Positions 3,976-56,244 of a stretch of DNA of 64,000 bases are shown in pieces (positions within the stretch are counted from its first letter, which is position 1; every line of letters begins with the position of its first letter). Made by a program: the position numbers and the translations under genes. The stretch is from Trichaptum fuscoviolaceum. Its lineage: Eukaryota > Basidiomycota > Agaricomycetes > Hymenochaetales > Trichaptaceae. Under the pieces are notes generated by a model. That model did not search any database. It was not told the origin of the DNA and saw only the letters and a list, made by a program, of their open reading frames with translations. The stretch lies in assembly GCA_910574455.1 (NCBI GenBank), contig CAJSYZ010000003.1:3161250-3225249 (forward strand), read 5' to 3'.

Positions 3976-4256
3976 TTTGTGCAGTGTTTTGAGACTTGTA
4001 TGATGATAAGATGTGTCGAAGGTGCAAGTTCAAGATCAGGGAGGCGGGGGCGTCTATCTTAGACAAGTTGAAAATTTACGCCCACTACTAGTACCGTGAC
4101 TACTCTATGACTAATTTTAACTCAGGTTCAAGTTCACTGCCAGTGGCACTCCGAGTCCGAGTCACTGCCAGTGCTAGCAGCCTGCCAGTGCCAGTGAGGC
4201 TCAGCTGTGAGTCCCAATTGTCAACGTGTACTACTACTGAGGTTACATTCAAGTTG
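3976..4256. promoter_or_regulatory. Divergent intergenic region of Plavaka copy 1
   Basis: About 280 bp between the partner gene (minus) and the transposase ATG (plus), so probably a shared bidirectional promoter. Bases 4091-4240 consist almost entirely of the short quasi-palindromic words (CACTG/CAGTG, GACTC/GAGTC, TTCAA/TTGAA, TACTA/TAGTA families). This block aligns poorly with the equivalent region of copy 2 (35918-36160), although flanking sequence on both sides aligns well. Confidence 0.5.
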
Positions 4257-6661
4257 ATGCCAGCGACACGGAAAAAAGCACGATCCCTTTCATTTTCCAC
4301 CAACTATTCGATGCACCTTGCCCGGCTGTAGTAGGACGTTCAAGAGTCAATCTGGAAGAGCAAGACATGAATATTCAGCTCATCCGACGTCATTCTTGGC
4401 AAGTTCTTCTGCCTGTGGTCACGAATATGAATCGTCACCTATTCGACCCATACGAGCTCCAAGTCCTCAACTTGGAGCTCTCCTGAGGTCGTCCGAACTT
4501 CCAACAGAGGGTCATTCTGAGAGCGGCTCTGACTCCTACGATTACGATATTTCCATGCTTACACAGGATATCTCGATGCTCAGTATAGGCCGAGACGAGC
4601 TGCTTCAAGATTTGGACAGACCTCATTCTCTGTCCCATTCTGTCACCGGAAGTGACAGTGGCCGTTCTGAAGACTTGGATTCCGACATTGGAGATTATAA
4701 GGAGAGTGAGGATAACTTGAAGGTGTATCACAGATACTTGAATGGTGCGCGCCAAATTAATTGTTCCCGGTTTACTGTAGCATTTTGACACCAAACATTG
4801 TGCAGCCACTCCATGCGATACAGAAGGGAACTTCTTAGAATATGAAGACTCACCCGCTCCGCGAAACGAATCTGCGTCAAATGACTGGTTTCCCTATTCG
4901 TGTCGAGCAGATTTTGAGCTCGCAGATTTTCTCTATCGAGAAGAGCAAATGTCTGCTGGGAACATAACAAAGCTTCTGGGAATCATGAAGGCTTATCAGC
5001 TGATTCAGGCGGCGGAGAATGTAAAATCTTGCGGATGTTCCAAATTGGATGCGACAGAGCCTGACGATGACTTAGATCTGGGTTCAACTAGTACGCTACT
5101 CAATGGAGACGCGCAAAAAATGTATAACGTCATTGATGCTACGAAAGTCGGTGATGTGTCTTGGAAATCCTTTAGTAACTTCTACACAGACGACAATGGC
5201 CAAAAGGTGACAAATGAGAACACCGAGTCATGGAAGAGGAAAGAATATGATGTTTGGTATCGGGATCCTTTGGAAGTGATCCGGAATTTGGTGGATAATC
5301 CAGCTTTGGAAGGCGAATTCGACTATGTCCCGTTTCGTGAGTATCAGCCGAAGGAGGACTCTGATGACAACAAAGAACGAGTCTTCAGAAACTACATGTC
5401 CGGAAACTTTGCTTGGGAACAGGCTGTAAGTCATGAATCATGCAGCATTCAAAGTTGGAAGAAGTGTATTGATAATCCTTGACTTAGAACAAAATCTTCG
5501 CCGAAGATAAAGCGGTCCATGGGTCTATGTTCGTTCCGGTCATCTTAGGGAGCGACAAGACAACAGTCTCCGTTGGAACTGGCAACAACGAATATTATCC
5601 ATTATATCTTTCAATAGGAAATGTATCTAACAAGGCCCGGCGGTCCCAAAAGCTGAATACAGTCCAGCTCGTAGCATTTCTAGCAATACCAAAGAGTGTG
5701 TGTCAAAAACTGAGCTATTCATTTGTGTTCAAGTTCTGATGCTTTGCAGCTGAATGGCAGTATGAAAAGTCAGATGACTTCCGTCGCTTTAGACATCAAA
5801 TCTTTCATTCATCTATATCAAGAATCTTGAGTCCACTGAAGACAGCAATGTCCATAAACAATGAACAAACCATTCTCCGGTGCCCTGATGGTCACTTGCG
5901 TAGGTCAGTTCTCGGACTCGGCTCGTATATAGCCGATTATCCGGAACAGGTGAGTCTATGCGCAATATGCACTGGATGGTGCTGCAAGTAAGTATTGTCC
6001 TTTCCAAAAATCACATCCAACTCGAGTTAGAGAAAATGACTTACTGTGGCCATATAGATGTACATCACCTCACAAGAATCTAGATAATCCGGAATTTGTT
6101 ACAAATCCTCGAACAAAAGAGCTACACGAACGATTGATAGAACAGGTGGATGACAACAGCATAAGTAGAGCAACGGTTCGAAAAGAGTATGGGTTCCACC
6201 AAGATATTGTGGTAAGTGTTCTAAACTCTCCATACAATGTGAGCTGACCACGACTATGCTCCATAGCCCTTCACCAATGACTTTCCACGTGCAGATATAT
6301 GCGATCTCATTTCTCCGGACCTACTGCACCAAATGATCAAAGGCGTATTTAAGGATCACCTTGTTGAGTGGATTTGCCAGAGCTTGACCACGACAGAGCT
6401 GGACGTTGTGGATAAAAGGTGCTGTTTTTTCACAAGTTGTTTAATGTGAATACTGCTGCTAATCTCCGCGTAGAATCAGAGTTGCTGCTCCTTTTCCTGG
6501 ACTTCGCAGATTTCCCGAAGGCCGAGGCTTCAAGCAATGGACAGGCAATGATTCTAAGGCACTTATGAAAGTATATGACCTTTCTGTCTTGTTCGAGGCG
6601 GTGGTTTGCTGATATTTGATGCAACTTGCTTAGGTGTATCTTCCGGCTATGTGGGCATTGC

Positions 6662-7491: not shown

Positions 7492-7493
7492 TT

Positions 7494-18360: not shown

Positions 18361-19568
18361 CTCAGTGAGTACTTATACGGCAACAGGGGGATCACTAGCA
18401 CACGCCGCTGTGGCCCCGTCGGTACTACTATGTAGTAACTTGAGTTGAAACCATACCCGCAGGCTGCCCAGTGGTCGCCAGCACTGGTGGCAGCAGTGCC
18501 ACAGTGGCACAGGACCCCAGCAACTTGAACTTGAACAAGTTCAAGTTGAAGCCCTAGTACTAGTACTGCCAGTGCCAGCCTTAGCCTGAGTACTATATAC
18601 TCAGGCTACTGCTCGGGCCGTGACACCGGTGCAGATGATCATGCCGGGCCTTCAAGTTCAAGTTGTCCGGATAATTGTTCTTTGAAAAGTTTGAGCTCAG
18701 GCTCTAGGCTTACTACTAGTAGTAGTAGTAGTACACTGGCATTCCAGATAGTATTTGAAGGAATCAAAATTTGAAAAATGTGAAGTAAATTTCCAGCTAA
18801 ATCACCCCAAAAAGTGCGGAGGCCTGTTCAAGTTGCAAGTTTGGCTAACAATGCCCTATACTAGTAGTAGTATTCAAGTTGTTGCTGAATTCTTCTCTGA
18901 AAGACCGGGCGCCGATCCTGAACTTCGATTCTTTTTTCCGACCTAAGGCTTGTACCACTGCCAGTGGCAACTTCAAGTTCAACTTGAAGTTGACTCGGAG
19001 GCGGCAGACCCCGGCAGTGGCCCGGCACAACTTAAAGGCCTGCCAAAGCTTTTATCGGATTTGGATAGTAACCATCCCCGGATCATGATGCAACCAACTT
19101 GAAGGCATGGCCCGGGTACGGAGTCCGGATGAAAGGACTGCCAAAGGCCTGCCCGGCAGTCCGACTAAAATTGCGCTAAAAGTTCCCAGTCCCGCTCTTT
19201 TCCGAATTCTAGTACTACTAGTAGTAAGAGAATCCACAGTTCAAGTTGAAGTGTTTTGTCCGGATAAAACCCATCCATTCAAGAGTTTCCGGCAGGCCTA
19301 GCCTGAGTATGATACTACTAGTAGTAGTAGTACTATTCGGACTCCTCGGGGTCCTAGCGCCACTCGGAACTTGAGGCTCCGACTTACTAATACTATCTGA
19401 GACAGCATCATGATCAGTGATAAGCTGAGTTCAAATTGTAACAAGTACTACATAGTAGTACATACTACTACGCCAAGGCTGCGACCCTGACCCTGTGCCC
19501 ATCGCCGTGTCACTCAGGCTCACTCACTGGCAGGCTGGCAGACTCCGAGTCTAACTGCACAATAAACA
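18361..19568. repeat. 1.2-kb intergenic hotspot of quasi-palindromic hexamer words
   Basis: Lies between the divergent genes at 15552-18328 (minus) and 19569-23093 (plus). Nearly the whole stretch is built from chained words of the TTCAA/TTGAA, CACTG/CAGTG, TACTA/TAGTA, AGCCT/AGGCT and GACTC/GAGTC families, in both orientations. A good example is 18530-18556, where two TTGAAC units are followed by inverted AAGTTC units. Less regular words with TCCGGAT and GGCCTGCC are also present around 18660-19180. No convincing gene was found. Confidence 0.75.
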
Positions 19569-27917: not shown

Positions 27918-27924
27918 CCTGATG

Positions 27925-28478: not shown

Positions 28479-28491
28479 TTTGATCTTTTGC

Positions 28492-31795: not shown

Positions 31796-31829
<34 letters not shown>

Positions 31830-35917: not shown

Positions 35918-36160
35918 TTTGTGCAGTGTTTTGAGTCTTGTATGAGGATAAGATGGATCGAAGGTGCAAGTTCAAGATCAGGGAGGCGGGGGCGTCTATC
36001 TTAGACAAGTTGAAAATTTACGCCCACTACTGCTATGACTAATTTTAACTCCGAGTCAGGTTCACTCAGGCTCACTGGCAGCCTCAGGCTGAGGCTCAGG
36101 TGTGAGACCCAAAGACCCAAGACGTGTACTAGTACTTCTACTGAGGCTACATTCAAGTTG
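35918..36160. promoter_or_regulatory. Divergent intergenic region of Plavaka copy 2
   Basis: 243 bp between the partner gene start and the transposase ATG. 36047-36150 is replaced by words (GACTC, CACTG, AGCCT families) that differ from those in copy 1, whereas 35930-36040 and 36150-36160 align well. It is a probable bidirectional promoter. Confidence 0.5.
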
Positions 36161-39100: not shown

Positions 39101-40150
39101 GTGCAGCCAATGATACAGAGGACTTCTTCGATGATATTGCGGCCAATCAAGAGCCAAATGAAATTGCAGATCTGGACGATTCGGAAGGTTTAGCGGATGG
39201 GCCACAGCGTGGTGCGGTTCATGGCAGAGGATTTGCTGAATGCCAGTTCCACTTGGGTGGCAGAAATGACCCTTTGAGCTTAATGCTAATGGCTTCGAGA
39301 CAGCGTCAGTAACACGTCTTTCTGATGCTGCACATCTAACTTCCTTGTTGTCGTCCACACAGAGTCCAGCAAGGTGTACCCTAAACAGCTCAGCGCTCTT
39401 GCGGCAAAAAAAGGCCATCCAGAGCTCCGACAGCTCCGACAACTCATAAAAAAGTACTTATTCAACAAGTACGAAAGGTGCAACCACAACTCCGATTCAG
39501 AGTGCTCTGCTGGCATGGCCGAATCGGACTACAACAGATTTGAACACTTTGAACTGGATATGAGCAATGACTTTTCAGTTTTCCATTCGGCCACCGCTTT
39601 CTTTGCCTACCGTGGTGAATCGATTCCCATAGAACAAGCAATGAGGGAAGTGATTAGGTCTAGCCCCTCTTGGCGTGGAAAACCTCGACGAGATGCAGTT
39701 CTTGTTCGAGTTAGCTCCGGCAAAAAGGGATTTGCAGGAATGAGAGTTGCCCGTGTTATGCTTCTATTTTCCTTCACCGACAAAGTGGAACGTCACGAAT
39801 GTGCTCTCGTCCAGTTTTACAAATGCGTTGGAGACTCGCCTGACCCAAAAACAAGTATGTGGATAGTCGAACCAGAGTACGAGTTCACGACCCCTACCTC
39901 TCAATCTGTCGCAAGTGGTCCTCAACAGAGTGCCAGTGGCAGAGCCACCTACCGCTCTAAGAGTTCGAAGTTTACCGTGATAGCTCTAGGGGATATCTTT
40001 CGGTTAGCTCACCTCCTTGGGGTCCCGAAGGGTGATGAATCTCCTCCGAAATCATTGGAACCGGAAGGCTCCTTGGACTTTTACGATAAGTTTTATGTTA
40101 ACAGATTCGCTGATATGCACATGCATGAAACATTATACGAAGCCAGATAA
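36161..40150 (+). pseudogene. Plavaka DNA transposase, copy 2 (one frameshift)
   Basis: Exons 36161-36668, 36730-37355, 37409-37616, 37664-37901, 37967-38120, 38176-38327, 38383-38479, 38543-39304 and 39363-40150; introns are 47-65 bp. The start is MPATRKKHDPFHF. It has a C2H2 finger (CTLPGCSRTFKSQSGRTRH), then an acidic variable linker, the transposase core and a C-terminal domain ending near HMHETLYEAR. Core blocks match the basidiomycete Plavaka family: DFELADFLYREEQMSAGN, YDVWYRDPLEVIRNLV, MFVPVILGSDKTTVSV, YIADYPEQ, NDFPRADICDLISPDLLHQ, RFPEGRGFKQWTG and SSITENKHIYAV. The summed exons are one base short of a multiple of three. The missing base is near 38548 at the start of exon 8, where copy 1 has one more base. 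So the gene is nearly intact but, unless splicing compensates, frameshifted. Confidence 0.85.
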
Positions 40151-40899
40151 CTTGAATAGAGTTAAATCCTATTTCTAGGCGTTAGCATGCCTGTGAGTAT
40201 GTTGGCATATATGACTATATAATTTGTACCTTGAGAGAGCACGGCAAGGGCATGTCAAATATGATTTCAATGATTAGTATTCAAGTTGTGATGAGGTCAT
40301 GGCGGTGTACCCTCCAAAATCCGAACTTGAAGTTATCCTTGACGAGGAGTCGGCGTTAGAAAACACTGGCAGTGGCACGCCGAGTCCGACTCCGAGTCGG
40401 GTTGGCACAGTACCACTGGCAGTGGCACCATGACTAATTTGATTTGATGTATTATTCCATTATAGTGACCGCAGGCCCTTAAGTAGGGCCTATCATGATG
40501 ATGGCGCACTTAGAATACATTGTAATTTAACACTACTGTAACTTGAATGTAATTGTAGAACTTGAAAGCGCAGAATAATTTTAACAAACAAGAAAAAGTG
40601 CAAAGGGTATGATCAGATTGAGATATGCCGAATGACGGTATTGTGAGGCGAAGTGTTGCTTGAAAGACTCTCAGAGGGGAGTGCATACAGTTACAGGAAT
40701 TGTTCAAGTGTTGATACAATATGTTGGTGATGGTTTTTATACAGTGCTCCGAGTCCGAGTCGATGGGGGGAACCGCTTTCGAGAATCCGAGAATCCGAGT
40801 CGGAGGCGTTCCGAGTGTATACTATTAGTAAATAAACTGATAGTACTAGTCGTAGTAAAAAAACGGGCCGAGCTTTCAAATTGCCGGCACTCCGAGTCA
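40151..40899. repeat. Plavaka 3' flank with word clusters
   Basis: No gene. Word clusters occur at 40320-40440 (CACTG, GACTC families) and 40740-40870. A GGCCCTTAAGTAGGGCC palindrome at 40475-40491 could be a terminator hairpin. I could not identify the terminal inverted repeats of the Plavaka element here. Confidence 0.45.
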
Positions 40900-41640
40900 G
40901 GCTCAGGCTCACGCAATTCCGGAACTTGAACACAGTGCCCTTCCTTTGAGCGGGAGAGAGAGAAAAAGCGAGGAATAAGTAGAAAAAGCCGGGTTCATTG
41001 AGTCGCGATGGCCGGGAACAGGTGGGGAAAGCGTTGTCCTTGATGTAGTGCAGGACTAGGTCATGCCTGGTACCCTTGCCCAGGGTTGATCTCAATGTGA
41101 AGGGTTTATTTTTGAGTGACGTTTGGAGTGCTCCGAGTCGGCGGGTGTCTGCGTACACACTGGCAATCGACACTGGCACGTGAAGAGATAATGGGAGACC
41201 GGATCCGGAACTTGGCAATTGAAACAGAGAGGAGAGTCAGTGCACAATATGCGGGCCAAGTGAGTATTGAGTGGTGTGTATCCTGTCCGGAGTTGTGTGA
41301 TGATCACACACTCGTTCCGGCTCCGATCCTTGCAGATTCTGCGAACTGCCCGAGACGGTGCAGTGAGGTCAACGGCGCGCAGTTTCTTCCCACTCTTCAA
41401 TCTGATCCACTCCGTCTTCCAGCGCAAGGAGGATTGGAGTTTCCGGTCTGCAACATCGGGATGCTTCAGGCGTCCAACCTATCTCGAGTCGGAGAATTGT
41501 GCCGCGATTTCGGCTTTCGCGTCCACTCAGGCTTGTTCGCCGTTCGCGGCCATGTCTTCGTGGCTCGGTACCCAGTGAATAGTGATTGCCAGAGTGGTTC
41601 ATTGCTCAGGCTGCCGAAGTCGCTGGATTTCTGCCCAGAA
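40900..41640 (-). pseudogene. LINE-type retrotransposon remnant (RNase H and C-terminal region)
   Basis: Minus-strand frames give a decayed RNase H C-terminal motif (WVPSHEDMAAN-like, in the first third, frameshifted), then a basic region RWKTEWIRL. Next is the stretch IITQLRTGYTPLNTHLARI followed by CFNCQVPDPVSHYLFTC, a Cys/His arrangement typical of the C-termini of Agaricomycete Tad/I-like LINEs. Several frame changes are present. No reverse transcriptase domain remains in the window. Confidence 0.65.
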
Positions 41641-42048
41641 CGTTCTGAGTAAGTGCTGGCCCGGTTGTGCTTTGGGTGTGTGGATGACTTGAAGGCCAGG
41701 CGACTTTCCTTATATGTCTCACTGGCAGTGCTGTGGCGGCGTGTCTACTACACGCAGACATACTACTTACTCAGCCTACTAGTAGTAGCCTGGTCTGGGT
41801 ACGTTACGAAAATAGCTAATAGTACTAGTACCGCAGCCACTCAGGCTGCAACTACTCTATAAAGTATGACTTGAAGAAGCTTCAATGCCAGGTCCTCGCC
41901 CTTTGCCCTCCTCGTCCTCGCTCATTCATCTGAAAAGTAGTATGTCCTTTCCTCCCGTGTCACTATCCTTCCCGCATTCAACTATTGTCTGCTCTCCCAT
42001 TCCCCTTATTATTACTGACTGTCTCTTGCAGCTTTTATTCACAATACG
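41641..42048. promoter_or_regulatory. Upstream region of protease-like gene 1
   Basis: 41720-41855 is word-rich (TACTA/TAGTA, AGCCT). A TATA-like box CTATAAAG lies at 41856-41864. A probable untranslated first exon and intron follow before the ATG at 42049; the intron sequence resembles that upstream of gene 3 (CCTTCCCGCATTC/CCTTCCCGTATTC). Confidence 0.45.
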
Positions 42049-44225
42049 ATGAATCCGGGCAACCGAGACCGGATGAAGCGTCCGAGTCGTCCCGGCGGCT
42101 CACTGGCACAGCAAGTCAATGCCAGCCTCAGGCTGCCAAGTGGCAGCTCTTTGAATTTGGAAGTGAGTTATGTCTTGGCGTCTTATACTACAATTTCAAA
42201 TTTGTTATCTCACATCCAACTTGGACTTGAAGTCATCGCCGGTGGGCCGGGCTCAGGTACTAGTATGTACTGCTGTTTAATTGAAATTTTCACCATGCTG
42301 AATGTCACCGATCCCCCATTTACCTCAATTAGCCATTTAGAAGGCCAGTGGCGACACTGAACTCCGAGTCGAGTTTTTATACCTGTCAGTATTATATCGG
42401 GATTCGGTCCAACCCTCCTCTGGTTGGCAGATCGAACCATGATCGGCGGCGAAAAGAGGACCATCAACATCGGGGAAAAGAAAAGTTCTTGAACGTCCTC
42501 GACAACGACTGCCCTCTGATCGGGCAATGGCCCGTTTTGCTACCTATATTTGAAGACGCTTTTGATCGCTTTCACGTCAGGCATACCGTGACATGCATAG
42601 ATATATGCAAGATTGGATATCATAAAGACGGGAAGGGGGAAGACGGGAGGTCAGATCCTGTTGTCGTGTGGATTGGAGTAATACCGTCCGAGTTGGAGGT
42701 GCTTATGCCCTCCGACTACGAGAGGCCTGTTGGTGATGTTTATTGTGAATGCGCCGACGCGATTAGAAGCTCCATTCGCAAGCGCTGGACATTCAAGTTA
42801 TCAGGGCGGTTCGAGGTAGAATTTCGCGAGGCCATAGAATTTCGTCATGTCGACACCGACGAACAAGCTGATCATGATGCAGACCCCCTGGTCTATATGG
42901 CTATAAACCAAATCCCACCTGAGACGTATGTCCCTGTACCTGATGTTGAACGACCGAATCCCGAACCTCAACCGAACGCTGCACCTCTCAGGGAAGTGGA
43001 TGACGAAGTTTGGGGTCAGCTCGTCCTCATGCTGCCACCCGTTCCTGACCCCTCACAATCTGATCTGGGATCATTCATGCAACGGATGTTGCACAAGGTC
43101 CAGACCACTGTCTCACACGCTATATCGGTGCAACCAGGCGTTGCTGTCAGCCCCCGAGGAAAGCGATCGTACGGAACTCTGGGACTTGTTGTGCAGATTC
43201 CAGTTCAGTCGGAAGGACAGGAAGCCAGGCTTCTATCGCACTTCATAACGTGTCGTCATGTATTGCTTCCAGACACCATCTCACATATCGACAATAGAGT
43301 CGAGAACGCCACCGCCTACAACTTGAAACGCGTGCAAATTGCACCTACGATCCACTACGATTATGTTTACAAATCGTACCTGAGTTCGGTGGAGGAGGAA
43401 CTTCTAGAGAAATTGTTACGCCATGCACAGACCCGGGTTGACTACGTACAGGCTATAGCAGACGTGCAACAAGTAAGGAGCGAACTGAACAACTTCAAAA
43501 CTCAGCTTCAGACATGGCATGCGGATACTAGTGACAACTCAAACACCCTGGTCATCGGCGCAGTAGTCTATTCGCCTTCACCAAGGCGCGAGAACTACCG
43601 GAGCATGTACGACCGCGATATTGCTGTCGTCCAGCTGTGCCATACCGTAATGGCTAACACAGTGGTCCCATACTATAACGTTTTGAACTTCGGTATCTAC
43701 GCGCAGGACAACACTATTTTGAACAGGATACGAACATTTTTCAATGAGCAACATGAGTTATATCCCGAAAATAACTCGTTGCCTATCAGGGCCGATATCA
43801 TCCCGAGCGCTGAGATGAATGTTTCGATCCCAGTTATAAAAGCTGGTGCTTCCACCGGTGTGACAGTCGGCATGGCCAACCCTATGGAGGCAATCTCCTT
43901 CGTCCGCGTCAATGTGTGCTATCGCAACAACCGTCCCACATACATTCTCACGTATGACCAACACCTGTACTGGACCGTGTATTCGCCGCTATCGGACGTC
44001 TTCTCGACAGCAGGTGATTCTGGAGCTGTCGTCGCTGACTTACGAGGACGGTGGGGAGGTCTCGTCGCATCTGGGGTCGGGGTTGATGAAGATCGACTCG
44101 ACATAACATATACAATCCCTGCTTTCGCAATCCTCGAGCAACTCTATAATGAGGCTGAATTCCCCAGAATTATAATACCTCAGGCTCAGGCTGACACTGA
44201 CCCGGACTTGGACCCGCAGCCTTGA
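42049..44225 (+). CDS. Trypsin-like serine protease family protein, gene 1
   Basis: Two-exon model 42049-42162 and 42390-44225, 649 residues. The N-terminal 38 residues are Arg/Ser-rich and word-derived. Residues about 85-190 form a domain with VTCIDICKIGYHKDGKG and VVVWIGVIPSELEVL, which precedes the protease fold in many Agaricomycete proteins of unknown function. The trypsin-like (PA-clan) domain shows His in FITCRHVLLP (H328), Asp in YDRDIAVVQL (D448) and Ser in AGDSGAVV (S582), so the triad is complete. There is no signal peptide, so it is probably cytosolic. The last residues (PQAQADTDPDLDPQP) are encoded by AGGCTC/GACTC-type words. It has a six-base CAAGTT insertion at 42794-42799 relative to genes 2 and 3. 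Confidence 0.8.
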
Positions 44226-44774
44226 AGTTGACAGCGAGAGCAAGTCCGAATCGACGTTGCCTATCTATTTTTTCCCCTTCACTTGTCCATCTCTCCACTA
44301 GCATACTGGTTTTGTTGGTTTTATTGCGTGCCCTTACTTAGTAGTTGCAAATTGTGATACAAAAATATCATGATGTTCCAAAGCTGTTACAACTTCAATC
44401 TTGCAGATCAAACCTTGAAATGGGTAAAGTTCTAGTTCAAGTAGAGCTCCAATTGTTGAACGTAAAGTCAGATTGGGCATAGTGACTTATAACGTGAACT
44501 TGAAGGCATCTAAATCGTACTCAGCCTAAGTAGTATCACAGCCTCCTGAGTGATTGCCAGTGCTATCTTCGACCCGGAGTCGCAACTCCGACTCGGAGTC
44601 GGAGTCACTGGACTCCGAGTCGTCACTGGCACTCCCAGGCACTCCCAGCCTCTGAGGCTCAGGCTGCCACTGAGTGCCGGCGTGGCAACTTGAACACTAC
44701 TAATATAAGAGCGCCGCCAGTGTCTTCCACTGGCACCCCCACCCTCTCAGGCTTCCCACTATCAGTTGGTAACA
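44226..44774. repeat. Intergenic word cluster
   Basis: 44515-44700 is almost entirely words, including perfect 11-mers GACTCGGAGTC (44590-44600) and GACTCCGAGTC (44611-44621) and chained AGGCTCAGGCT. A TATA-like TAATATAAGAG lies near 44700-44710, 65 bp upstream of the next ATG. Confidence 0.65.
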
Positions 44775-47700
44775 ATGTCGGATGTCGTGCAACTTGAATT
44801 TGACGTATGCCCTTCTTTCAAAGTTCATATATTGCTATCCGTATTTACCTGTTGCTCTCAACTCGAAGGCAAAGATAGTACCACTCCGACGCGATGCCAC
44901 TGGCAGTGACGGCGCACAGGCTGACTCCCACTCACTGGCAGGATGGCAGTCGGAAATTTACAAACTAATATACAATGTGTGTTTTGTACTATGCCACAAG
45001 AATTGTTTGGTGGCCTCTTACTAAGTTATACTGACATTCTGCCTTTCGCTTCTGCTCAAGCTTTCCAACCTTACTCCTGACAAGAGAGACTTCATCCAAC
45101 AATTGATGCAGCCAAACTTACCGACTAGTAGCAACAACAATTCAAACGCCGAACTTGAAGTAAAATGTCTTGATATTTCTTTTAATCTGCCATGATGTTG
45201 ATGTGTTCCCCCTTCTTACTTGTTTCAACACTGCCTGACATCAAGATAACGTTTGTTTACGATGGCAAAAAAGTTAACAACCGAGTATGTCCTGTTCTCA
45301 TTCTCCCTGTTCCATCTCTATCTCACTGGCAAGCAGGATTCTGCCGATGCTGCGGTTGCCTCGCCAGTTCGCGAAACGCAATTGTCAAAGATTGATGACA
45401 GCGTAAACGTATGTCGTGCTACTTTTGTTTGTTATCATGCATAATGAATTCTCATCGTCTCATCTAAAGACGTCCAATGCGCCTCCAGTAGACAGTAAGC
45501 AGAAGTTGCCGCCACGAGTGACACAAGAGACGTCCTCGGGAGTGAAACAACTCAGCCTGAGTTCCGGTATCGCTACAAGCAAGGAAGACTCTCAGGCTAC
45601 CGATACTGCGGTGGCCGCGCCAGTTCGCGAAACGCAATTGTTGAAGATTGGTGACATCGTAGATGTATGTCGTGCTATGTCATTTGCTTTTTCCCCAGCC
45701 ATGCTGATTTGTTACCGTTTCCCCTTCTGCCTCCATTAGACGTTCAATGGACCCCCAGTACATGGTGTATGGCCGGTACCTCTACCGCCGCCACTGGCAG
45801 TGACACAGAAGACAATCCCGGATACGACCCTTCTCACAGACAGTTCTAATATCATATCATTGGAAGCGAAAAAACCTGTGAAGACTCGGAGGATTTGGGA
45901 TCTGAAGGATCATCTCAATTATTACTGGGGATGTCCGACCAACGCTGTTCCTGTCGGGCGTAGTGGATTTTTTGTGGGACACCAGGGGAACATTCCGGGA
46001 CCGCATAAGCGCGAGAAAGCGATGAAGCACATAAACGTCCTTGACAACAACTGCCCTCTGATCAGGCAATGGCCCGTTTTGCTACCTATATTTGAAGACG
46101 CTTTTGATCGCTTTCACGTCAGGCATACCGTGACATGCATAGATATATGCAAGATTGGATATCATAAAGACGGGAAGGGGGAAGACGGGAGGTCAGATCC
46201 TGTTGTCGTGTGGATTGGAGTAATACCGTCCGAGTTGGAGGTGCTTATGCCCTCCGACTACGAGAGGCCTGTTGGTGATGTTTATTGTGAATGCGCCGAC
46301 GCGATTAGAAGCTCCATTCGCAAGCGCTGGACATTATCAGGGCGGTTCGAGGTAGAATTTCGCGAGGCCATTCCTCAGTCCTGTCCCGCAAGTGGAGTGG
46401 TACCAACCCCTAATCCCCTGGACGACGGAAAACCTCTCGAACACGAACAACTACCTGGCCCCGTACCAGCACCTGGACAATCACATGTAGTCGATGGCCT
46501 TGCCGCTCCCGCGTCTGGGTTCGGAAGTCTCGGCCAAGAAACCAAGGACCCGACAGAGAACGTTTCCTTACCTTGTTTTCGACCACTGGCACCTGATACC
46601 ATAATTCCGGACAGCACGGCTCTTGACCTTCCGCCTGATAAAATTTTGGCCGGAGACTTCAGTGAACCCAGATCTCCTGAATCTATAATTAAGTCTCTAG
46701 AGGCATACACTTCAACCCTTCGAGGAACAAGCATAGGAGTTAGTGGTCAGGACACTTTCAGTACATGGGGTCCCATCATCAAATTTCAGGGGTTGGATAA
46801 ACTGTTCAGTTTGATTAACGGACATGCTATATTTTCCGCCTCTAGTGAAACTACCATCAACGAACTAGTGGACGCCGTTGAAAACCCAGCTGACGAGGAC
46901 CAGCGTGTATCAGACGTCGAGGACAAGCGTGAACTATATCTAGTCCATATTCTACCTGATGCCTACCGTTCCTTTATCGACAACGAATTCTGTCGAGCGT
47001 TAAATGAGCTTGGAAGACAAAGGCAGAGATGCAAAGAACGACTTGACAAACTGGAATTGATCTCGAAGGATTTACAAGCAGATGGTAGCGGAAGCATCGC
47101 AGTCCCAAGCGCTAAGTATGCTCCTTATGGTGGAATGACAATCAACATTTCCCAAGAAATCGAAATAGCCTCTGCGCTCTCCAAATCTACCACTAAAGCA
47201 ATGGGGGACTATCACGAAATCCATCGGAAGGTTTACGAAAATTTCAACCTACTCGAACCTAATGGGACTCGCGCTGGGACCATTGGCTATGTTGGCTATT
47301 CGCATTCAGGCTCGCAGACCTGTGCCGAGATTGGGCATGAATTCGGTTTCAATTCTGAGTTTGCCCTCGTGCAGCTGTTCGACAAGAAAGTCAACGAAAC
47401 GAACTTTCAGTGTAACGTCATTCACTTCGGGCAGCATCCTGAGACCAATGTCGTGCGTATTCGGTCGGCCTATAGAAAAGCAAAGGTTCCGTACCCTACG
47501 AATGGACGTCTCGAAATCAAGTCAGGGTATATCGAAAGGTCGGATCAATTCAATCATGAGATTGCGGTGTTAAAGGCTGGTGCTACCACTGGTGTAACAG
47601 TTGGATATGCGAACCCGATGGAGTCTGCGATCTACGCAGTCATAAATAGGACACTCGGCGGCAACCCGACGAATCCGCCACTGGCAAAGTTGAAAAAAGG

Positions 47701-47959
47701 AGCTGCACGCCTTGTCTGGAATATACCTTCAAAATACGACTACTGTTTCGCAAAAAGTGGTGATTCTGGTTCTCTGATTGCTACCTTGGACGGCAAATGG
47801 GGCGGAATAATTACCGAAACTTGTGTCAAGGGTCTTCAAGTTAGCACAGGTGCTGACAACGGCGATTTCACCTACGCGCTCCCAGCATTCGCTATTGATG
47901 AGATGCTTACCTATGCCAAATTTCCGCCGATCGTTGTACCAACGACACGCAAGGACTGA
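44775..47959 (+). CDS. Trypsin-like serine protease family protein, gene 2
   Basis: The last two exons are secure: 45470-45664 and 45740-47959. An upstream exon ends at 45408; other 5' exons are uncertain, with a candidate ATG at 44775 followed by a GTATGC donor. The N-terminal part is low complexity. The CIDICKIGYHKDGKG/WIGVIPSELEVL domain follows. Then there is a linker rich in Pro with several VPTPNPLDD-like segments, and a trypsin-like domain with a candidate catalytic His (LINGHAIFSAS) and Ser (KSGDSGSLIATLDGKWGG). The position expected to hold Asp reads NSEFALVQL, so Glu replaces Asp. It is nearly identical to gene 3. The D-to-E change suggests loss or change of peptidase activity. Confidence 0.78.
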
Positions 47960-48378
47960 CTCTGAACAATGTATCTTTACTTTGTTAATCTGTCTTTCTT
48001 CCGCATTCCTCCACTACTATTCTTACTAGTTTCATGCTTTTCTGCTTTTGTTGTGTGTTGTTGTACGCTAGTACTAATGGAATACCTGTTGCGAACTTGA
48101 GTATTGAGCCTGAACGACTCTTGAAGTATTATTCTTAGTAGTAGTTTCAACTGCCAGTTGGCAGCCTGAGTGCCGCACCGCCGCGTGTCACGGTGCAGGC
48201 TGACTCAGACTCGGAGGAACTTCAAGTACCGTGACTAGTAGTATATAAAGTAAAAGAAATGGTCTTGTCTCGTAATCGATGGTATGCCCTTTCCTTTTGA
48301 GTTTCCATCCTTCCCGTATTCAAGTTGACCTGTCGTATTCACTCCTGTCCTCATAATCTTGTCTCGCAGGCATTCGTA
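47960..48378. promoter_or_regulatory. Upstream region of gene 3
   Basis: Words at 48060-48240; TATA box TATATAAA at 48242-48249. The first part (47960-48115) is duplicated after gene 3 (51906-52061), so the duplication unit includes the 3' flank. The ATG at 48259 is only 10 bp from the TATA box and is unlikely to be used; the next plausible start is 48379. Confidence 0.55.
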
Positions 48379-51300
48379 ATGTGGCCACGGAGGAGAGAGC
48401 GAGTCCGTTCCGAGTTCGCCAGTAATCATCGTAAACTTGAAGTGAGTGAAGTGCTACTACTACTAGTACTACTAGTATCTTCAAGTCATTCGAATATTAA
48501 TCTGTTGTCTTCATTCCGACTCGGACTCGAAGAGGAACCCCCCCAAAGTCCGCACGAAATTGCGAGGTTTTCTAAGAACCATACAAGCCATCTTCGCGCC
48601 AAACACGACTCTAGCTAACGTGTGTCTTGATATCTTACTTTCAAGTTATTTACTGCCCTGCTAATTTCTCATTGTCTCGACTGTAGACGTCCAATGCGCC
48701 TCCAGTAGACAGCAAGCAGTTGAAGCCTCCGCGGCGACGGCGGGTGACACAGAAAGATAAGAAACACCATCGTTCCGGTATTGCAACAAGCGATGAAGAC
48801 TCTACTCCTCGCGAAACGCAATTGCCGAAGATTGATGACAGCGTAAACGTATGTCGTGCTACTTTTGTTTGTTATCATGCATAATGAATTCTCATCGTCT
48901 CATCTGAAGACGTCCAATGCGCCTCCAGTAGACAGTAAGCAGAAGTTGCCGCCACGAGTTACACAAGAGACGTCCTCGGGAGTGAAACAACTCAGCCTGA
49001 GTTCCGGTATCGCTACAAGCAAGGAAGACGCTTTCGCAACAAACAAGGAAGACTCTACATTTCGCGAAACGCAATTGTCAAAGATTGATGACAGCGTAAA
49101 CGTATGTCATGCTACTTTTGTTTGTTATCATGCATAATGAATTCTCATCGTCTCATCTAAAGACGTCCAATGCGCCTCCAGTAGACAGTAAGCAGAAGTT
49201 GCCGCCACGAGTGACACAAGAGACGTCCTCGGGAGTGAAACAACTCAGCCTGAGTTCCGGTATCGCTACAAGCAAGGAAGACGCTTTCGCAACAAACAAG
49301 GAAGACTCTACATTTCGCGAAACGCAATTGTCAAAGATTGATGACAGCGTAAACGTATGTCATGCTACTTTTGTTTGTTATCATGCATAATGAATTCTCA
49401 TCGTCTCATCTAAAGACGTCCAATGCGCCTCCAGTAGACAGTAAGCAGAAGTTGCCGCCACGAGTGACACAAGAGACGTCCTCGGGAGTGAAACAACTCA
49501 GCCTGAGTTCCGGTATCGCTACAAGCAAGGAAGACTCTCAGGCTACCGATACTGCGGTGGCCGCGCCAGTTCGCGAAACGCAATTGTCGAAGATTGGTGA
49601 CATCGTAGATGTATGTCGTGCTATGTCATTTGCTTTTTCCCCAGCCATGCTGATTTGTTACCGTTTCCCCTTCTGCCTCCATTAGACGTTCAATGGACCC
49701 CCAGTACATGGTGTATGGCCGGTACCTCTACCGCCGCCACTGGCAGTGACACAGAAGACAATCCCGGATACGACCCTTCTCACAGACAGTTCTAATATCA
49801 TATCATTGGAAGCGAAAAAACCTGTGAAGACTCGGAGGATTTGGGATCTGAAGGATCATCTCAATTATTACTGGGGATGTCCGACCAACGCTGTTCCTGT
49901 CGGGCGTAGTGGATTTTTTGTGGGACGCCAGGGGAACATTCCGGGACCGCATAAGCGCGAGAAAGCGATGAAGCACATAAACGTCCTTGACAACAACTGC
50001 CCTCTGATCGGGCAATGGCCCGTTTTGCTACCTATATTTGAAGACGCTTTTGATCGCTTTCACGTCAGGCATACCGTGACATGCATAGATATATGCAAGA
50101 TTGGATATCATAAAGACGGGAAGGGGGAAGACGGGAGGTCAGATCCTGTTGTCGTGTGGATTGGAGTAATACCGTCCGAGTTGGAGGTGCTTATGCCCTC
50201 CGACTACGAGAGGCCTGTTGGTGATGTTTATTGTGAATGCGCCGACGCGATTAGAAGCTCCATTCGCAAGCGCTGGACATTATCAGGGCGGTTCGAGGTA
50301 GAATTTCGCGAGGCCATTCCTCAGTCCTGTTCCGCAAGTGGGGTGGTACCAACCCCTAATCCCCTGGACGACGGAAAACCTCTCGAACACGAACAACTAC
50401 CTGGCCCCGTACCAGCACCTGGACAATCACATGTAGTCGATGGCCTTGCCGCTCCCGCGTCTGGGTTCGGAAGTCTCGGCCAAGAAACCAAGGACCCGAC
50501 AGAGAACGTTTCCTTACCTTGTTTTCGACCACTGGCACCTGATACCATAATTCCGGACAGCACGGCTCTCGTCCTTCCGCCCGATAAACTATTGATTGGA
50601 GACCCCAGTAAACCCAGATCTCCTGAATCTATAATTAAGTCTCTAGAGGCATACACTTCAACCCTTCGAGGAACAAGCATAGGAGTTAGTGGTCAGGACA
50701 CTTTCAGTACATGGGGTCCCATCATCAAATTTCAGGGGTTGGATAAACTGTTCAGTTTGATTAACGGACATGCTATATTTTCCGCCTCTAGTGAAACTAC
50801 CATCAACGAACTAGTGGACGCCGTTGAAAACCCAGCTGACGAGGACCAGCGTGTATCAGACGTCGAGGACAAGCGTGAACTATATCTAGTCCATATTCTA
50901 CCTGATGCCTACCGTTCCTTTATCGACAACGAATTCTGTCGAGCGTTAAATGAGCTTGGAAGACAAAGGCAGAGATGCAAAGAACGACTTGACAAACTGG
51001 AATTGATCTCGAAGGATTTACAAGCAGATGGTAGCGGAAGCATCGCAGTCCCAAGCGCTAAGTATGCTCCTTATGGTGGAATGACAATCAACATTTCCCA
51101 AGAAATCGAAATAGCCTCTGCGCTCTCCAAATCTACCACTAAAGCAATGGGGGACTATCACGAAATCCATCGGAAGGTTTACGAAAATTTCAACCTACTC
51201 GAACCTAATGGGACTCGCGCTGGGACCATTGGCTATGTTGGCTATTCGCATTCAGGCTCGCAGACCTGTGCCGAGATTGGGCATGAATTCGGTTTCAATT

Positions 51301-51905
51301 CTGAGTTTGCCCTCGTGCAGCTGTTCGACAAGAAAGTCAACGAAACGAACTTTCAGTGTAACGTCATTCACTTCGGGCAGCATCCTGAGACCAATGTCGT
51401 GCGTATTCGGTCGGCCTATAGAAAAGCAAAGGTTCCGTACCCTACGAATGGACGTCTCGAAATCAAGTCAGGGTATATCGAAAGGTCGGATCAATTCAAT
51501 CATGAGATTGCGGTGTTAAAGGCTGGTGCTACCACTGGTGTAACAGTTGGATATGCGAACCCGATGGAGTCTGCGATCTACGCAGTCATAAATAGGACAC
51601 TCGGCGGCAACCCGACGAATCCGCCACTGGCAAAGTTGAAAAAAGGAGCTGCACGCCTTGTCTGGAATATACCTTCAAAATACGACTACTGTTTCGCAAA
51701 AAGTGGTGATTCTGGTTCTCTGATTGCTACCTTGGACGGCAAATGGGGCGGAATAATTACCGAAACTTGTGTCAAGGGTCTTCAAGTTAGCACAGGTGCT
51801 GACAACGGCGATTTCACCTACGCGCTCCCAGCATTCGCTATTGATGAGATGCTTACCTATGCCAAATTTCCGCCGATCGTTGTACCAACGACACGCAAGG
51901 ACTGA
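48379..51905 (+). CDS. Trypsin-like serine protease family protein, gene 3 (repeated exons)
   Basis: Exons recognised: 48379-48441, 48687-48848, 48910-49101, 49163-49354, 49416-49610 and 49686-51905; an exon around 48518-48595 is possible. The exons at 48910, 49163 and 49416 are near-identical tandem copies coding SNAPPVDSKQKLPPRVTQET... (192-195 nt, symmetric phase). The catalytic part (49686-51905) is a near-copy of gene 2, with the same His (NGHAIF), the same Glu in place of Asp (SEFALVQL) and GDSG serine. A cluster of about a dozen substitutions separates the two genes around 50570-50616. Joining of the first exons is uncertain. Confidence 0.75.
48849..49415 (+). repeat. 253-bp tandem exon-intron duplication
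   Basis: A unit made of a 61-bp intron plus a 192-bp exon is present at 48849-49101 and 49102-49354, and again (with a changed 3' part) from 49355. A single related unit exists in gene 2 at 45409-45664. Each exon has 64 codons, so every added unit keeps the frame. Confidence 0.9.
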
Positions 51906-52275
51906 CTCTGAACAATGTATCTTTACTTTGTTAATCTGTCTTTCTTCCGCATTCCTCCACTACTATTCTTACTAGTTTCATGCTTTTCTGCTTTTGTTGT
52001 GTGTTGTTGTACGCTAGTACTAATGGAATATCTGTTGCGAACTTGAGTATTGAGCCTGAACGACTCTTGTAGTAGCACTACTATTCTTAGTAGCAGTTTC
52101 AAACTGAGTCACTGGCACGCCACCACTCAGATAGTAGTAGCCTGCCAGTGAGTACTCTACGTAGTACTACTACTCGCTTCAAGAAGAGGACACTCAGCCT
52201 GAGGCTGACACTAGTACTACTACTACTACTACTAGTAGTAGTACTACTTCTAAATCTGCAACTCTGCTGCCTGAA
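51906..52275. repeat. Duplicated 3' flank and word cluster
   Basis: 51906-52061 repeats the flank of gene 2. From 52062 it diverges into words, with perfect AGCCTGAGGCT at 52196-52206 and TACTACTAGTA at 52227-52237. Confidence 0.7.
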
Positions 52276-54994
52276 ATGTTAAACTCGAACTTCGAACCCT
52301 CAGGCTCTCGCCACCGCTGTGACTGGCTCCTGACGACGCGATCCAGGAGCCTGAGTCCCACCTGCAGTTGTGGTCATTGTGTCTGGCGCTGCGGCCTTAC
52401 TACTAACAGTGTCACACCTGTATCGTCGTCTCTGGCAGCTGGCACTCAAGCACACCGGTATCAGGAGTTAGGTCAAGAACTTGAAGAACAACAAGAAGTC
52501 TCGGACGACCCAGGTTGCTCGCACCAGTACCATACTACTCATACTACACTGGCACAGGACCGAGGTAGACCCACGCGGGTTGACTCCAGACGTACTCGCA
52601 GCCCGAGACGTAGCCTGAGGTCTTCCGAGGTTCCAAACAACATCATGCAATTCCAGAAACAGCATGATGCCACGCATTGTACTCGCAGCAGTGGTATCTC
52701 AAAGTCGCTGAATCAGTGGGACCAATTGCATCGACACCAACCAACATCGCGGCGAACTTCTTATAGGAAGGACTTGACGCCATCCCACTCGGCTCCTCCA
52801 AGTCAACGATCTGACAGCGCCGGGGGAGGGCGAGCTCAGTCTATGAGTCTCTTAGACAGCCCGAGGGGTAAGGCGATGGAGGCGCAAAATGGTCCGGTGG
52901 AATATACTCTTGATAATGTGGAAGGCCCAAGAAAGGAACCTGTCTGGGGGGTCAAAGCTGAGATCAACGAGTCAAAGTCGGCTCCTTCAGGTATTAACTT
53001 ATCTCAATTGATATCTATGGTATAATTGCTTATTAGCGCAAATTATAAGCCTTTATCGCTATGGCAACTCTTAAACAAGATATAATTCGGCAAAAGGATA
53101 TACACAGGTGTCTATCTTCCGGAACGAATGAACACGACGAGGCCATGCAAAATAGTTGTGATTTAAGTGTATTGGATCCTGCTAGGACGGGAGAGCAAGG
53201 AGGGCAAGAGACAGGACAGGATGCATCAGTCGTGCAGACGGAAGACGAGGATCTTCGTGCAGAGGTAGCCGCTCTGAGAAACGAGGTGACGGAAATGAAG
53301 AAGGCATACCATGCAAAGTTTCAAGAACTCACGAGACTTAGCGAATCCTTCAGTAAACAGGAGAAGCTCGTCGAAGAGGTTTTTGAAACTGTCGATCTAT
53401 TATGTGAAAGTGTTGATGGGGTATGGTAATGGTCATACTTCTTAACATTGATTCTAAACGTCTGACAGTCTTCATCTAGAATCAAGTGGCGAAGGATGGG
53501 GTGACCTTGAGGTCTTTCCTGGAGGACCTTCAACGCTATGTTGTTCACGGCTCGTTTTTCCTCCTTCCCTTTGAGAAGTCTGAGAGGGAAGCTTGCCTTC
53601 AGTTCCGAGGCCAGCGAAAGATAGAATGGATGAGCTTCAACCTTCAGATGAAACATATTTTTGTGAACTATCATAAAACTCTTCATGGCGAAGGAAATTC
53701 TCTCCGTCTGATTCAATCGAGGTCCCCATTGGGAGAAAGTCTATATCCGATGGACGAAAGAACGCGCTTTCGAGAAAGAGGACCTCTGCCCAGTCTGCGA
53801 GAGCAGAAGTACTGTCTGAATTACACTGACAACAAACTCGAGCTTCCCATATTTAAGTCTGGGATATTCTATTTCTTCATCCCCTTGTTCCTAGCCCATT
53901 ACGTTGCGTATAGGAACCACATCGAACTTCTGGACGAGATGATTCACGTGTTCCGCAACCGCATTGAACTGCACGAGAGGGAAGGAGGATGGGCAGGAGG
54001 ATCACACGATTACCAGACGCCGGCGCAAAAAGCGTGTATTATTTTTACCAGCAACGAGGATATCTATCCGGATGGGTATGATCGATGGCCATCTGTGGGG
54101 GCGATTGATTTGAACCGTTTACTGATATTGGTGAAACGCGACCTATCGGCACGGGAGGTGAACAGCAAAAATATCGATGTCAAACTTCAAGAGGCAATTG
54201 CTGTTTTCCAAGGCAGCGATATGCTTGCGTCCAAGGACTTACAGAAGGAATTGGAACCAACTGTAGCGCCCTTTCGCCAGCAACGTATGGCTGCATTCGA
54301 GGGGCACCGTAAACGATTGGATCGAAGTATGGATTCGACAAATCTACGAAAGCAAGGACCTGAAGTTCATTCATCTGGCTACATACGTGACCATCGCAAG
54401 CGTGCCCTTCCGGATCACACAGATGTTATGGATGATCCTCAGAGGAAACGTCCCCGCAACTCTGACAATGAAGTGGTCCCTCCCGAACCCCAGACATTGA
54501 ACTTCTATTCTTCGGCTTTGAATAAGGCGGAAAATACCCAGAGAGCTCTAATTCATGGATATACGACAGTGAAAAGATGGCTCGCGATAGTTACCAATGA
54601 TGAAATCTTCAAGCACGTCGTGAACAAGAAATCTGTTATGGGCAAAGCACTGAATGCGATCGCACATGAGCGAGAGTGGAGTGTCGAGAAGATTTATGAA
54701 TCCGCTACAAGGCTGTCAAGTCTGTTCGCTTCAGATGCCGAGGAATCCGACGGGACGCCCCTCTCAGAAACCGAGAAAGCAAAGTTCACAGACGCGTTTC
54801 GGGAGGTGGTCGCAGGTGTTTATGAGGTCAGCGGTGATCTTTTGGGTCCTGACTTACCACCTCCACCAAATAATAATGGGCAGTTGAGAATTGCGGCTTT
54901 CATCTCACGCGCGAGGGCTTGGACAGAGCCCGAAGAAAAACAGTTGAAATCGATAGTGGGATGTGCTGAATTTGATCATTTGAACATGGCGTAG
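52276..54994 (+). CDS. Uncharacterised lineage-specific protein, 866 aa
   Basis: Exons 52276-52990, 53050-53420 and 53480-54994; introns are 59 bp each and all phases agree. The first 240 residues are Ser/Arg-rich, low complexity and partly word-derived. Residues about 300-360 form a coiled coil (LRAEVAALRNEVTEMKKAYHA). The third exon codes a helical domain with a hydrophobic helix IFYFFIPLFLAHYVAYRNH then IELLDEMIHVF, a basic RKRLDRSMD...KRALPDH...RKRPRN region that may be a nuclear localisation signal, and a C-terminal helical region with VKRWLAIVTNDEIFKHVV. No named domain. The FF-PL-Y-LLD-I pattern and the later segment resemble the 15552-18328 product (FFVPLLIWSY...LLDALI; LTDDLFMHVI), suggesting distant paralogy. 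Confidence 0.72.
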
Positions 54995-56244
54995 TATGTA
55001 GCAGGGAAATTTGAACGTGTCGGATAGTATCGGGTTTTCAGAATGAGATAGACTGTAACTTGAACCAGATGTACGATCATGATTGCAACTGCCCATAGTA
55101 CTGTAGCCCTTCCTATACATTTTCACATAGTACATATTGCTTTTTACTTTGTATACCACTAGTGCTAGTTATAGTTTGGTGAACACCCAGGGAATGGGTG
55201 TGCTGGATAGCATGAGCAACACCTGTCATACTATAATGATGATGATGATGAACGAGCCTGAGCTTGAAGTCTCAATACATGCACAGTAGTAGTAGTAGTT
55301 GGCAGTAATGAGTGGCGGCTTCGACTTCTATACTGAATCTGCTGATGAACTTATCTTGTACTTGCCATTTTACTTAAACTGTGCACGCTCGTGCTTAAAT
55401 CTCACTTGAGCCTGGCTTGGCGCCTGATGTACAACTTCCCTCCTTATGCACTGATTTCGTCCTGAAACACCGTGTTCTAAGGCCATCAGGCAGCCAGGCA
55501 ACGCTTCAGGTAGGCATGGCATCGCTTCATCCCATTTAAGGAAGCTTCAGGACGCGCCAGGACGCGCCAGTCGCCGTAAGCAGACGGAAGTTTCCCTGAT
55601 GATGCGGAATCAACGTCTTCAAGTTTTCGCAATCCGATGAGCCTCAAACAGAAAAATCGTCAGTACGAGAAATTTTAATCGGAATTTACCTTTTTCCGGT
55701 AACCCGGGAAAGGTCATTCAGCTACTTAACCCTAATTGGTAGCTTTCCAGAAAGGTTCGGAAATCACTCCTGATTATATTTCGAGCCAATCCAAGGCCAA
55801 TAAAGGCTGAAATCTAACAAAAAAAATAATGTCCTTCAAAAAAATTTGAAACATCACCCGGAGATTTTTTTATTGCATAAATCGACGTATCTTTCTTACT
55901 TTGATTACAAAAATTTCAGCATGGCGAGTTTTCACGCAAAATTCCGGCCTGCACCCAGAGGCGGGTTTTGGCCTTTCGCCACTGTAGTAGCCTCAGGCTG
56001 AGCCTGAGTGCGGAGTGGTGACGTCAGCGGCGGACACTTGCCACTGCCAGTGGCAGTGGCAGGCTCAGGCTGCCAGTACTAATTAAGTTGAAGTTACTAC
56101 ATAGCCTGAGTATTCTCGCACGAAGGCCCGCTGAACTCTGCCGACCATTTCTTGCTTCTAGCATAATCCTCGGTCTACGCATATCCACGACTTGGAACGT
56201 GTAAGGGCGGCACAAAGGTGACCTCAACTAGCAGAGCGAATAAG
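54995..56244. repeat. Boundary between accessory and conserved DNA: hAT-like repeat and words
   Basis: 55395-55603 is the second copy of the dispersed repeat at 27527-27917, ending GTTTCCCTG. A short GATGAT microsatellite is near 55234. 55608-55980 is AT-rich without a gene. 55985-56110 is a word cluster (CACTG/CAGTG, AGCCT). Conserved genes start after this. Confidence 0.55.

Follow-up and report, generated by a model that had tools for sequence, protein, structure and literature searches.

Short palindromic motifs of Trichaptum fuscoviolaceum as probable excision footprints of giant Plavaka transposons

The stretch of Trichaptum fuscoviolaceum DNA analysed here (contig CAJSYZ010000003.1, positions 3,161,250 to 3,225,249; 64,000 nucleotides, hereafter the window) contains numerous short palindromic motifs and a complete giant transposon of the Plavaka type. 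A preliminary description of the window had reported five families of 11-bp palindromes, made of a pentamer, one C or G, and the reverse complement of the pentamer (N5-S-rc(N5), where S is C or G and rc the reverse complement), and had proposed that a single process produces all of them. We found that the true unit is not a pentamer but the 8-mer d-C-d'-G-d, built from a dinucleotide d and its reverse complement d' (for example TG-C-CA-G-TG and AA-C-TT-G-AA). These 8-mers, which we call scars, are probably the excision footprints of giant Plavaka-superfamily transposons, presumably formed via hairpins on the flanking DNA as with RAG and hAT enzymes. The earlier interpretation was thus partly supported.

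The five perfect palindromes quoted in the preliminary description were all present (TGCCAGTGGCA at 4138, TTCAAGTTGAA at 23482, GACTCCGAGTC at 44611, AGCCTGAGGCT at 52196 and TACTACTAGTA at 52227). Word counts in the window were compared with 20 order-2 Markov simulations. The window contained 123 N5-S-rc(N5) words versus 33.9 ± 5.9 in the simulations, showing that the motif families are real and far above chance, and 39 words of the same form with A or T at the centre (32.5 simulated). Since the A/T-centred words were near expectation and the C/G-centred ones far above it, the C or G at the centre matters. Each pentamer is itself of the form xy-S-y'x', and arrays are therefore (xy S y'x' S)n. 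The 6-bp period that had been described was confirmed, while the flips of orientation said to accompany it are only C/G differences at S.

Further evidence for the period was obtained by counting period-6 runs of at least 11 bases, with the mean of 10 simulations as the expectation. In the window, they were enriched for the classes AA/TT (19 versus 2.5), CA/TG (21 versus 0.6), TA (21 versus 0.4), AG/CT (19 versus 1.3) and GA/TC (18 versus 1.4), and weakly for AT (6 versus 1.0), but not for AC/GT (1 versus 0.8), CC/GG (0 versus 0.3), CG (0 versus 0.2) or GC (1 versus 0.0). We also used a sample of 20 evenly spaced 10-kb stretches from five contigs of the same genome (200 kb), in which runs of this length were again enriched for TA, AA/TT, CA/TG and GA/TC. 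The motifs were patchily distributed, 7 of the 20 stretches being devoid of such runs of the five classes. Genome-wide, on both strands, TGCCAGTG was found 15,070 times and its backward reading 1,397 times; the corresponding numbers were 18,963 and 5,773 for AACTTGAA, and 10,074 and 2,748 for GACTCGGA. The families are therefore commoner than other N5-S-N5' words, which holds in the window for each of the five and in the whole genome for the three that were searched.

The 8-mer d-C-d'-G-d was found 460 times in the window (34.9 expected) and 466 times in the 200-kb sample (93.5 expected); both strands were read, so that each occurrence is counted twice in these totals. The swapped order, d-G-d'-C-d, was 4-fold rarer in the window (116) and 2.7-fold rarer in the sample (172). 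A control with a mirrored core was not enriched (36 versus 28.4 in the window, 104 versus 96.5 in the sample), nor were, as a group, the controls with A or T in place of C and G (d-T-d'-A-d, 34 versus 29.5; d-A-d'-T-d in the sample, 112 versus 89.5). Two other controls, 'cmp', which for AA/TT is the motif itself, and 'dir', with self-complementary d such as TA or AT, were not clean and are kept out of the argument. Outside longer TA runs, the six most enriched 8-mer types all fitted d-C-d'-G-d.

The origin of the scars could be read from paralogous sequences. The window holds a diverged duplication (13-6660 and 31958-38569, 90.6% identical), with copies of the motif on one side of the alignment that are missing on the other. 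In 15 paralogue alignments, the numbers of insertions or deletions (indels) of 1 to 8 bases were 31, 9, 13, 2, 3, 17, 4 and 2, respectively, with a few longer ones. The 17 six-base indels represented 15 distinct events (two were seen twice), of which 8 were exact replacements of d by d-C-d'-G-d and 3 more had one mismatch. Three additional exact insertions were found outside these alignments, at window position 55618 and at loci L029 and L162. In 8 of the 11 exact events (window 34672, 2758, 3169, 37289 and 55618; L005:37; L029; L162) the empty copy had a lone dinucleotide, the other three lying beside or inside arrays. As in a footprint, extra bases are thus present between the copies of a duplication at sites that are empty elsewhere, and the joints of exact scars show the palindromic P-nucleotide pattern x-y-C-y'-x'. 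The presence of lone 6-bp units inside unrelated flanks also excludes that the arrays are fragments of a longer satellite. Among the 13 three-base indels, 7 were TA-S-TA or AT-S-AT, three of them within longer TA arrays, where slippage is possible too; the other six misfitted or were doubtful. The 5-mer TA-S-TA, which the 6-bp TA scar contains as well, was enriched 1.95-fold, compared with 1.02- to 1.34-fold for other d-S-d.

The motif-rich loci had a common end, CATCAGGGAAAC..., and the 13-mer CATCAGGGAAACT was present at 495 places (259 + 236) in 59.09 Mb, compared with none for its reversed control. These 495 places are ends of giant Plavaka transposons of the form CATCAGGG...CCCTGATG. From 100 of them we derived 20 element pairs, a pair being a + end followed by a - end, and 60 further ends. 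Among the matches listed, the 20 pairs spanned 17.2-40.9 kb (mean 25.6 kb), and the 2-bp target duplication, read on both flanks, was identical in all 20. Eleven pairs less than 60 kb apart could be formed from the 60 other ends; 10 had equal dinucleotides, and the exception spanned 59.7 kb. Insertion therefore takes place at a dinucleotide d, which becomes duplicated: d-[CATCAGGG...CCCTGATG]-d. A complete element is present in the window (Table 1), and paralogues without it read straight through from one flank to the other. A second copy, at C2:2928685-2956333, is 99.7% identical over the longest match and differs by a retrotransposon insertion and by a tandem segment; no 6-bp indel was found between the two. 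At least 40 copies matched a 723-bp probe from the window element at 97-100%. With approximately 250 element equivalents of about 25 kb, we estimate that such elements make up some 10% of the genome.

The assignment to Plavaka rests on the transposase, of which four exon pieces matched Pfam PF18759 with E-values of 1.7e-23, 4.1e-27, 6.3e-24 and 1.4e-16, in the order of Table 1. Nine open reading frames (ORFs) tried first gave no Pfam match, and none of them covered these pieces. The ORFs directly downstream had no Pfam match at E<=0.1; the segment 38566-40150 is 79% identical to 13393-14972. The end at 27912-27924, from a second element of the same kind, is common with locus L021 (98.2% over 2.6 kb). 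PlavakaB elements of Agaricomycotina are described, in part of PMC12730594, as having CATCA..TGATG termini and 2-3 bp duplications, and the elements studied here resemble them in their PF18759 transposase, CATCA..TGATG-type termini and 2-bp duplication. They measure 17-41 kb in the 20 pairs, and the word 'footprint' is absent from the main text of that report. Three pairs of element ends (C1:21286 and C2:120551, C1:73078 and C1:418026, C1:5148558 and C1:5248410) had identical 40-bp flanks, and these elements were therefore probably duplicated along with host DNA. At C2:4128404-4197954, an element (ends at 4147455 and 4185412; TA) is apparently nested inside a wider end pair with GA on both sides.

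Several observations tie these elements to the scars. We read the duplications at 80 ends, namely the left end of each of the 20 pairs and the 60 others; the set includes three cases of two ends with identical flanks, as well as ends that belong to a single element. Among the matches listed, the classes were AA/TT (21), TA (18), CA/TG (17), GA/TC (6), AG/CT (6), AT (6) and CG (6), and none of the 80 ends had AC/GT, CC/GG or GC, which together account for 28% of dinucleotides. Counted as approximately 67 distinct elements, the numbers were 17 for AA/TT, 15 for CA/TG, 14 for TA, 6 for GA/TC, 5 each for CG, AT and AG/CT, and 0 for AC/GT, CC/GG and GC. The class of the duplication correlated with the excess of scars (Spearman coefficient 0.83, p 0.003, when counted by element, and 0.77, p 0.01, when counted by end). 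The scar's two constant bases, C and G, are those at which the element terminates. The five families thus appear as five target-duplication dinucleotides around one terminal C/G pair, in keeping with a single process; the earlier argument against transposon ends, that they could not account for five unrelated sequences of one geometry, fails, because the five are the duplication dinucleotides of one kind of transposon.

For two of the 80 ends (L039, TTCAAGTT; L057, TGCCAGTG), the insertion site was the closing dinucleotide of an exact scar, compared with 0.07 expected (p 0.003). In the dispersed repeat that hosts the window element, locus L162 carries GGAAC-AACTTGAA-GCGG at the same two positions, which are occupied by a plain dinucleotide in the 27 remaining aligned copies (AT in 21, GT in 4, TT in 2). 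The window copy in this alignment has its own TTCAAGTT scar, found in none of the 28 others. Finally, the duplication was preceded by C in 43% of 97 unique flanks (24% expected), indicating that C-NN-G, the interior of the scar, is a favoured target.

The 2-bp duplication, the replacement of d by d-C-d'-G-d, the polarity of C and G and the target preference were all seen directly, and a hairpin step, as follows, would connect them. The first nick would be made one base inside the element, so that each flank would keep the terminal C as its 3' end. This 3' end would attack the opposite strand to form a hairpin, x-y-C-y'-x'; opened two bases past its tip, the hairpin would give each flank a 3' overhang, xyCy'x'. 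As the duplicated d is the same on both sides, the two overhangs would be complementary over their terminal two bases; annealing of the tips and gap filling would then yield d-C-d'-G-d (+6 bp). When d is self-complementary, as TA and AT are, the overhangs could pair along all five bases with one C:C mismatch, to give d-S-d (+3 bp). This would explain why the clear 3-bp events involve TA or AT, though their numbers are small. The snap-back synthesis or template copying invoked previously survives in one respect, as the data agree with inverted, snap-back-like copying of very short stretches at breaks, while there is no sign of a small set of templates.

As the scar contains C-d'-G and C-NN-G is favoured, scars can be hit again and nest. 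Every new event adds a matched C...G pair, and with d replaced by d-C-d'-G-d each time, the S letters of an undamaged array should form balanced brackets, C opening and G closing. The C/G strings of the longer arrays did tend to be balanced, which explains the 'flips'. In counts covering all ten classes in the window plus the 200-kb sample, CG was found in 315 of 581 two-S arrays (25% at random), and balanced strings were found in 16 of 37 four-S arrays (12.5% at random, p 3e-6) and in 8 of 13 six-S arrays (7.8% at random, p 1e-6); the sole eight-S array was not balanced. Some of these arrays are near-copies because of the internal duplications of the window. For the five main classes, the two-S arrays comprised 272 CG and 56 GC, and the four-S arrays 10 CGCG but no GCGC, and 6 CCGG but 1 GGCC. 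Taken together, we lean towards the following model: Plavaka would excise through flank hairpins that keep one element base; most donor sites would be sealed with the stereotyped, frame-preserving d-C-d'-G-d; and the C-NN-G of the scar would seed further hits, building arrays by a context-free bracket grammar, so that the genome would be a readable record of excision and the arrays a new-looking class of simple repeat.

The three words searched genome-wide exceeded their reversed controls by 34,189 places. Scaled by class shares, this extrapolates to about 45,000-50,000 scars in the genome. In 1-27924, which extends to the end of the left element (its start was not found), exact 8-mers amounted to 38 per 10 kb, and inside the window element to 46 per 10 kb, compared with 6.5 and 10.7 per 10 kb outside; the 6.7-kb retrotransposon at 6662-13392 holds only one. 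Of 230 exact 8-mers, 60 were in listed ORFs (29,892 of 64,000 bases), including the transposase exon pieces. With 3 or 6 bp gained each time, the reading frame is preserved.

A number of results do not sit well with the conclusion that the scars stem from excision of the giant elements. The link between element and scar is a matching signature, and no excision event was seen. The joined flanks of L057, L043, L039 and L037 were single copy, with no scar, and that of L031 is in a repeat in which 13 matches cross the junction, with no excess of 6 bp in match length; in all, 5 of 6 joined-flank searches gave no scar. Both scar-seated ends belong to the 20 pairs, none of the 60 single ends being in a scar. 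The d of the L162 scar (AA) differs from the duplication of the window element (AT), so that the scar does not represent excision of the same insertion. The class spectra also diverge in places: CG accounts for 6 of 80 duplications and yet CG scars are barely present (5 versus 2.5 expected); GA/TC and AG/CT scars are commoner than their share of duplications; and AC/GT scars (16 versus 5.6), CC/GG scars (11 versus 3.5) and one GT insertion were found, with 0 of 80 ends. AG/CT runs of at least 11 bases were not enriched in the 200-kb sample (5 versus 4.0), even if the AG/CT 8-mer was (27 versus 7.0). Four of the 15 distinct 6-bp indels do not fit d to d-C-d'-G-d, and some exact ones adjoin existing arrays. 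The bracket rule was broken by odd-S arrays, which make up 92 of 724; 266 of 581 two-S arrays were not CG-ordered and 21 of 37 four-S arrays were unbalanced. The tendency, though strong, is thus by no means absolute; departures from the rule would be expected from mutation, fortuitous matches and 3-bp events. Lastly, to have left tens of thousands of scars, the elements, of which about 250 are present, must have jumped very often in the past, unless further families were involved; other families with the same termini may have contributed.

This last point bears on the possibility that the scars are footprints of other, perhaps smaller, 2-bp-duplicating transposons with C..G termini and not of the giant elements. 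Sequence variation just inside CATCAGGGAAACT indicates more than one subfamily, and further element types are present; however, apart from CG, the dinucleotide spectrum at CATCAGGG ends fits that of the scars, and we regard this explanation as rather unlikely, other 2-bp families not having been searched for. The same enzyme might also have cut target sites or aborted integration without a lasting insertion, no established element being excised. Target preference and 2-bp geometry would then be equal, and scars would be expected to outnumber present elements by far, as they do. Against this, the retained C and G are the end bases of the element, which requires joining of the end followed by cutting, and sites still holding an element between intact duplications are frequent (20 of 20, among the matches listed), making this possibility improbable.

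Degenerate microsatellites, i.e. (xy S y'x' S)n hexamers growing by replication slippage with C/G changes every third base, would account for the period of 3 or 6 in longer arrays and for several copy differences within existing arrays, including single TAC/TAG units and one TACTAG unit. Slippage predicts neither the C-before-G polarity (272 versus 56) nor the match with the duplication classes, and eight exact 6-bp units were found at sites where, in the empty copy, d stands alone without any array. We set this explanation aside as very improbable because the insertions begin from a lone dinucleotide. Repair scars formed independently of any transposase, for example polymerase-theta-type snap-back insertions at ordinary breaks, can hardly be at the origin of the motifs: palindromic filler does occur in end joining, but the fixed length, the fixed C and G, the 2-bp duplication and the restriction to certain classes are against it.

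Excision of the giant Plavaka elements, the explanation we favour, can be compared with known systems. Tc1/mariner footprints likewise consist of terminal element bases left between duplicated target dinucleotides; the difference is that the inner dinucleotide here is d' rather than element sequence, and that the target is not limited to TA. The Ac/Ds element, of the hAT superfamily, has an 8-bp target duplication, as opposed to 2 bp here. Unlike in Ac/Ds, the centre of the scar is the element's own end base. Ac/Ds footprints are, according to part of PMC5873905, palindromes centred on single bases and attributed to hairpin resolution, with involvement of yeast Pso2, a relative of Artemis; the scars share with them the short one-base-centred palindromes and the P-nucleotides, which are explained there by off-centre opening of flank hairpins and end joining. 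The same part of PMC5873905 describes the Ac/Ds scars as heterogeneous (28 kinds in 128 clones in Candida albicans), whereas here one +6 product dominates. RAG and hAT enzymes form hairpins on flanking DNA, as reported in part of PMC6900584, and this chemistry, known for RAG, a relative of ProtoRAG, would be common to Plavaka. According to a section of PMC12730594, Plavaka has the C(2)C and H(3-4)H motifs, between the catalytic D and E, in common with RAG1, Transib and EnSpm. Differences from RAG, Transib and ProtoRAG are the 2-bp length of the duplications here and a hairpin that, for Plavaka, we infer. In Marasmius oreades, hAT insertions and excisions have been described, with one Plavaka-related deletion that the pertinent part of PMC9674265 does not regard as excision. 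Among the open-licence papers listed in our searches, we found no description of this scar pattern and no account of DNA cutting by Plavaka, a relative of CACTA and RAG transposases.

The scars thus provide a large natural data set that predicts the position of the nick, the position of hairpin opening and the mode of end joining, and past excisions would become countable in a genome. The findings also point to accumulation of transposon scars, instead of slippage, as a possible origin of tandem 'simple repeats', and to very frequent movement of 17-41 kb elements in this fungus.

Table 1. Position of the giant element, its transposase and representative scars in the window
Feature	Position	Strand	Remarks
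Complete giant Plavaka-type element, 24.6 kb, termini CATCAGGGAAACT...AGTTTCCCTGATG	30996..55601	+	Termini and duplication read directly
Left target-site duplication AT	30994..30995		Single AT in 21/27 empty copies (GT 4, TT 2)
Right target-site duplication AT	55602..55603		
Plavaka transposase exon pieces	36705-37370, 37409-37642, 37642-37902, 38176-38355	+	Pfam PF18759
ORFs directly downstream of the transposase pieces	38461..40150	+	Paralogue at 13408-14972
End of another such element, flank dinucleotide CG	27912..27924	-	Rest of element upstream
Scar TC-C-GA-G-TC	34672..34679	+	Paralogue near 2731 has only TC (exact)
Scar TG-C-CA-G-TG, in transposase exon piece	37289..37296	+	Paralogue has only TG (exact)
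Scar AA-C-TT-G-AA	2758..2765	+	Paralogue has only AA (exact)
Scar GT-C-AC-G-GT, rare class	3169..3176	+	Paralogue has only GT (exact)
Scar TT-C-AA-G-TT (TTCAAGTT), right flank of window element	55618..55625	+	Only TT in 28 aligned paralogues
Nested scar TGCCAGTGGCA	4138..4148	+	In dense cluster (about 4091-4205), several insertions apart from its paralogue
Nested array cluster, AA/TT, TA, CA/TG and AG/CT classes	18522..18590	+	
Nested GA/TC array	44581..44625	+	
AG/CT scar, then long TA-class array	52196..52240	+	

Other features were noted in the window and at other loci. Within the giant element, a 253-bp tandem repeat (48783-49623, 3.3 copies) is the segment that differs in the C2 element, and 45365-48150 and 49311-52102 are two copies of one sequence (99.0% identity), each with an ORF of 719 amino acids; the ORF of the first copy had no Pfam match and no relative, both at E<=0.001 (7,996 scored candidates). 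The host repeat of the window element contains other insertions at L160 (2.9 kb) and L161 (1.4 kb), which are not CATCAGGG elements, as their ends differ. Tandem repeats in ORFs at 22793-22926 (12 bp, TGCAGATGCGAG) and 31688-31851 (6/48 bp, CCTCGC) are ordinary and unlike the scars. Additional inverted and direct repeats were present at L022 and L029. The retrotransposon at 6662-13392 has identical 830-bp long terminal repeats and is, by eye, of the Ty3/gypsy type; a single long terminal repeat at 17222-18040 is 96% identical to them. An NPC1-like protein is encoded at 56424-58991, the closest named records (67-68%) being from Sanghuangporus, Coniferiporia and Phellopilus, which belong to the Hymenochaetales.

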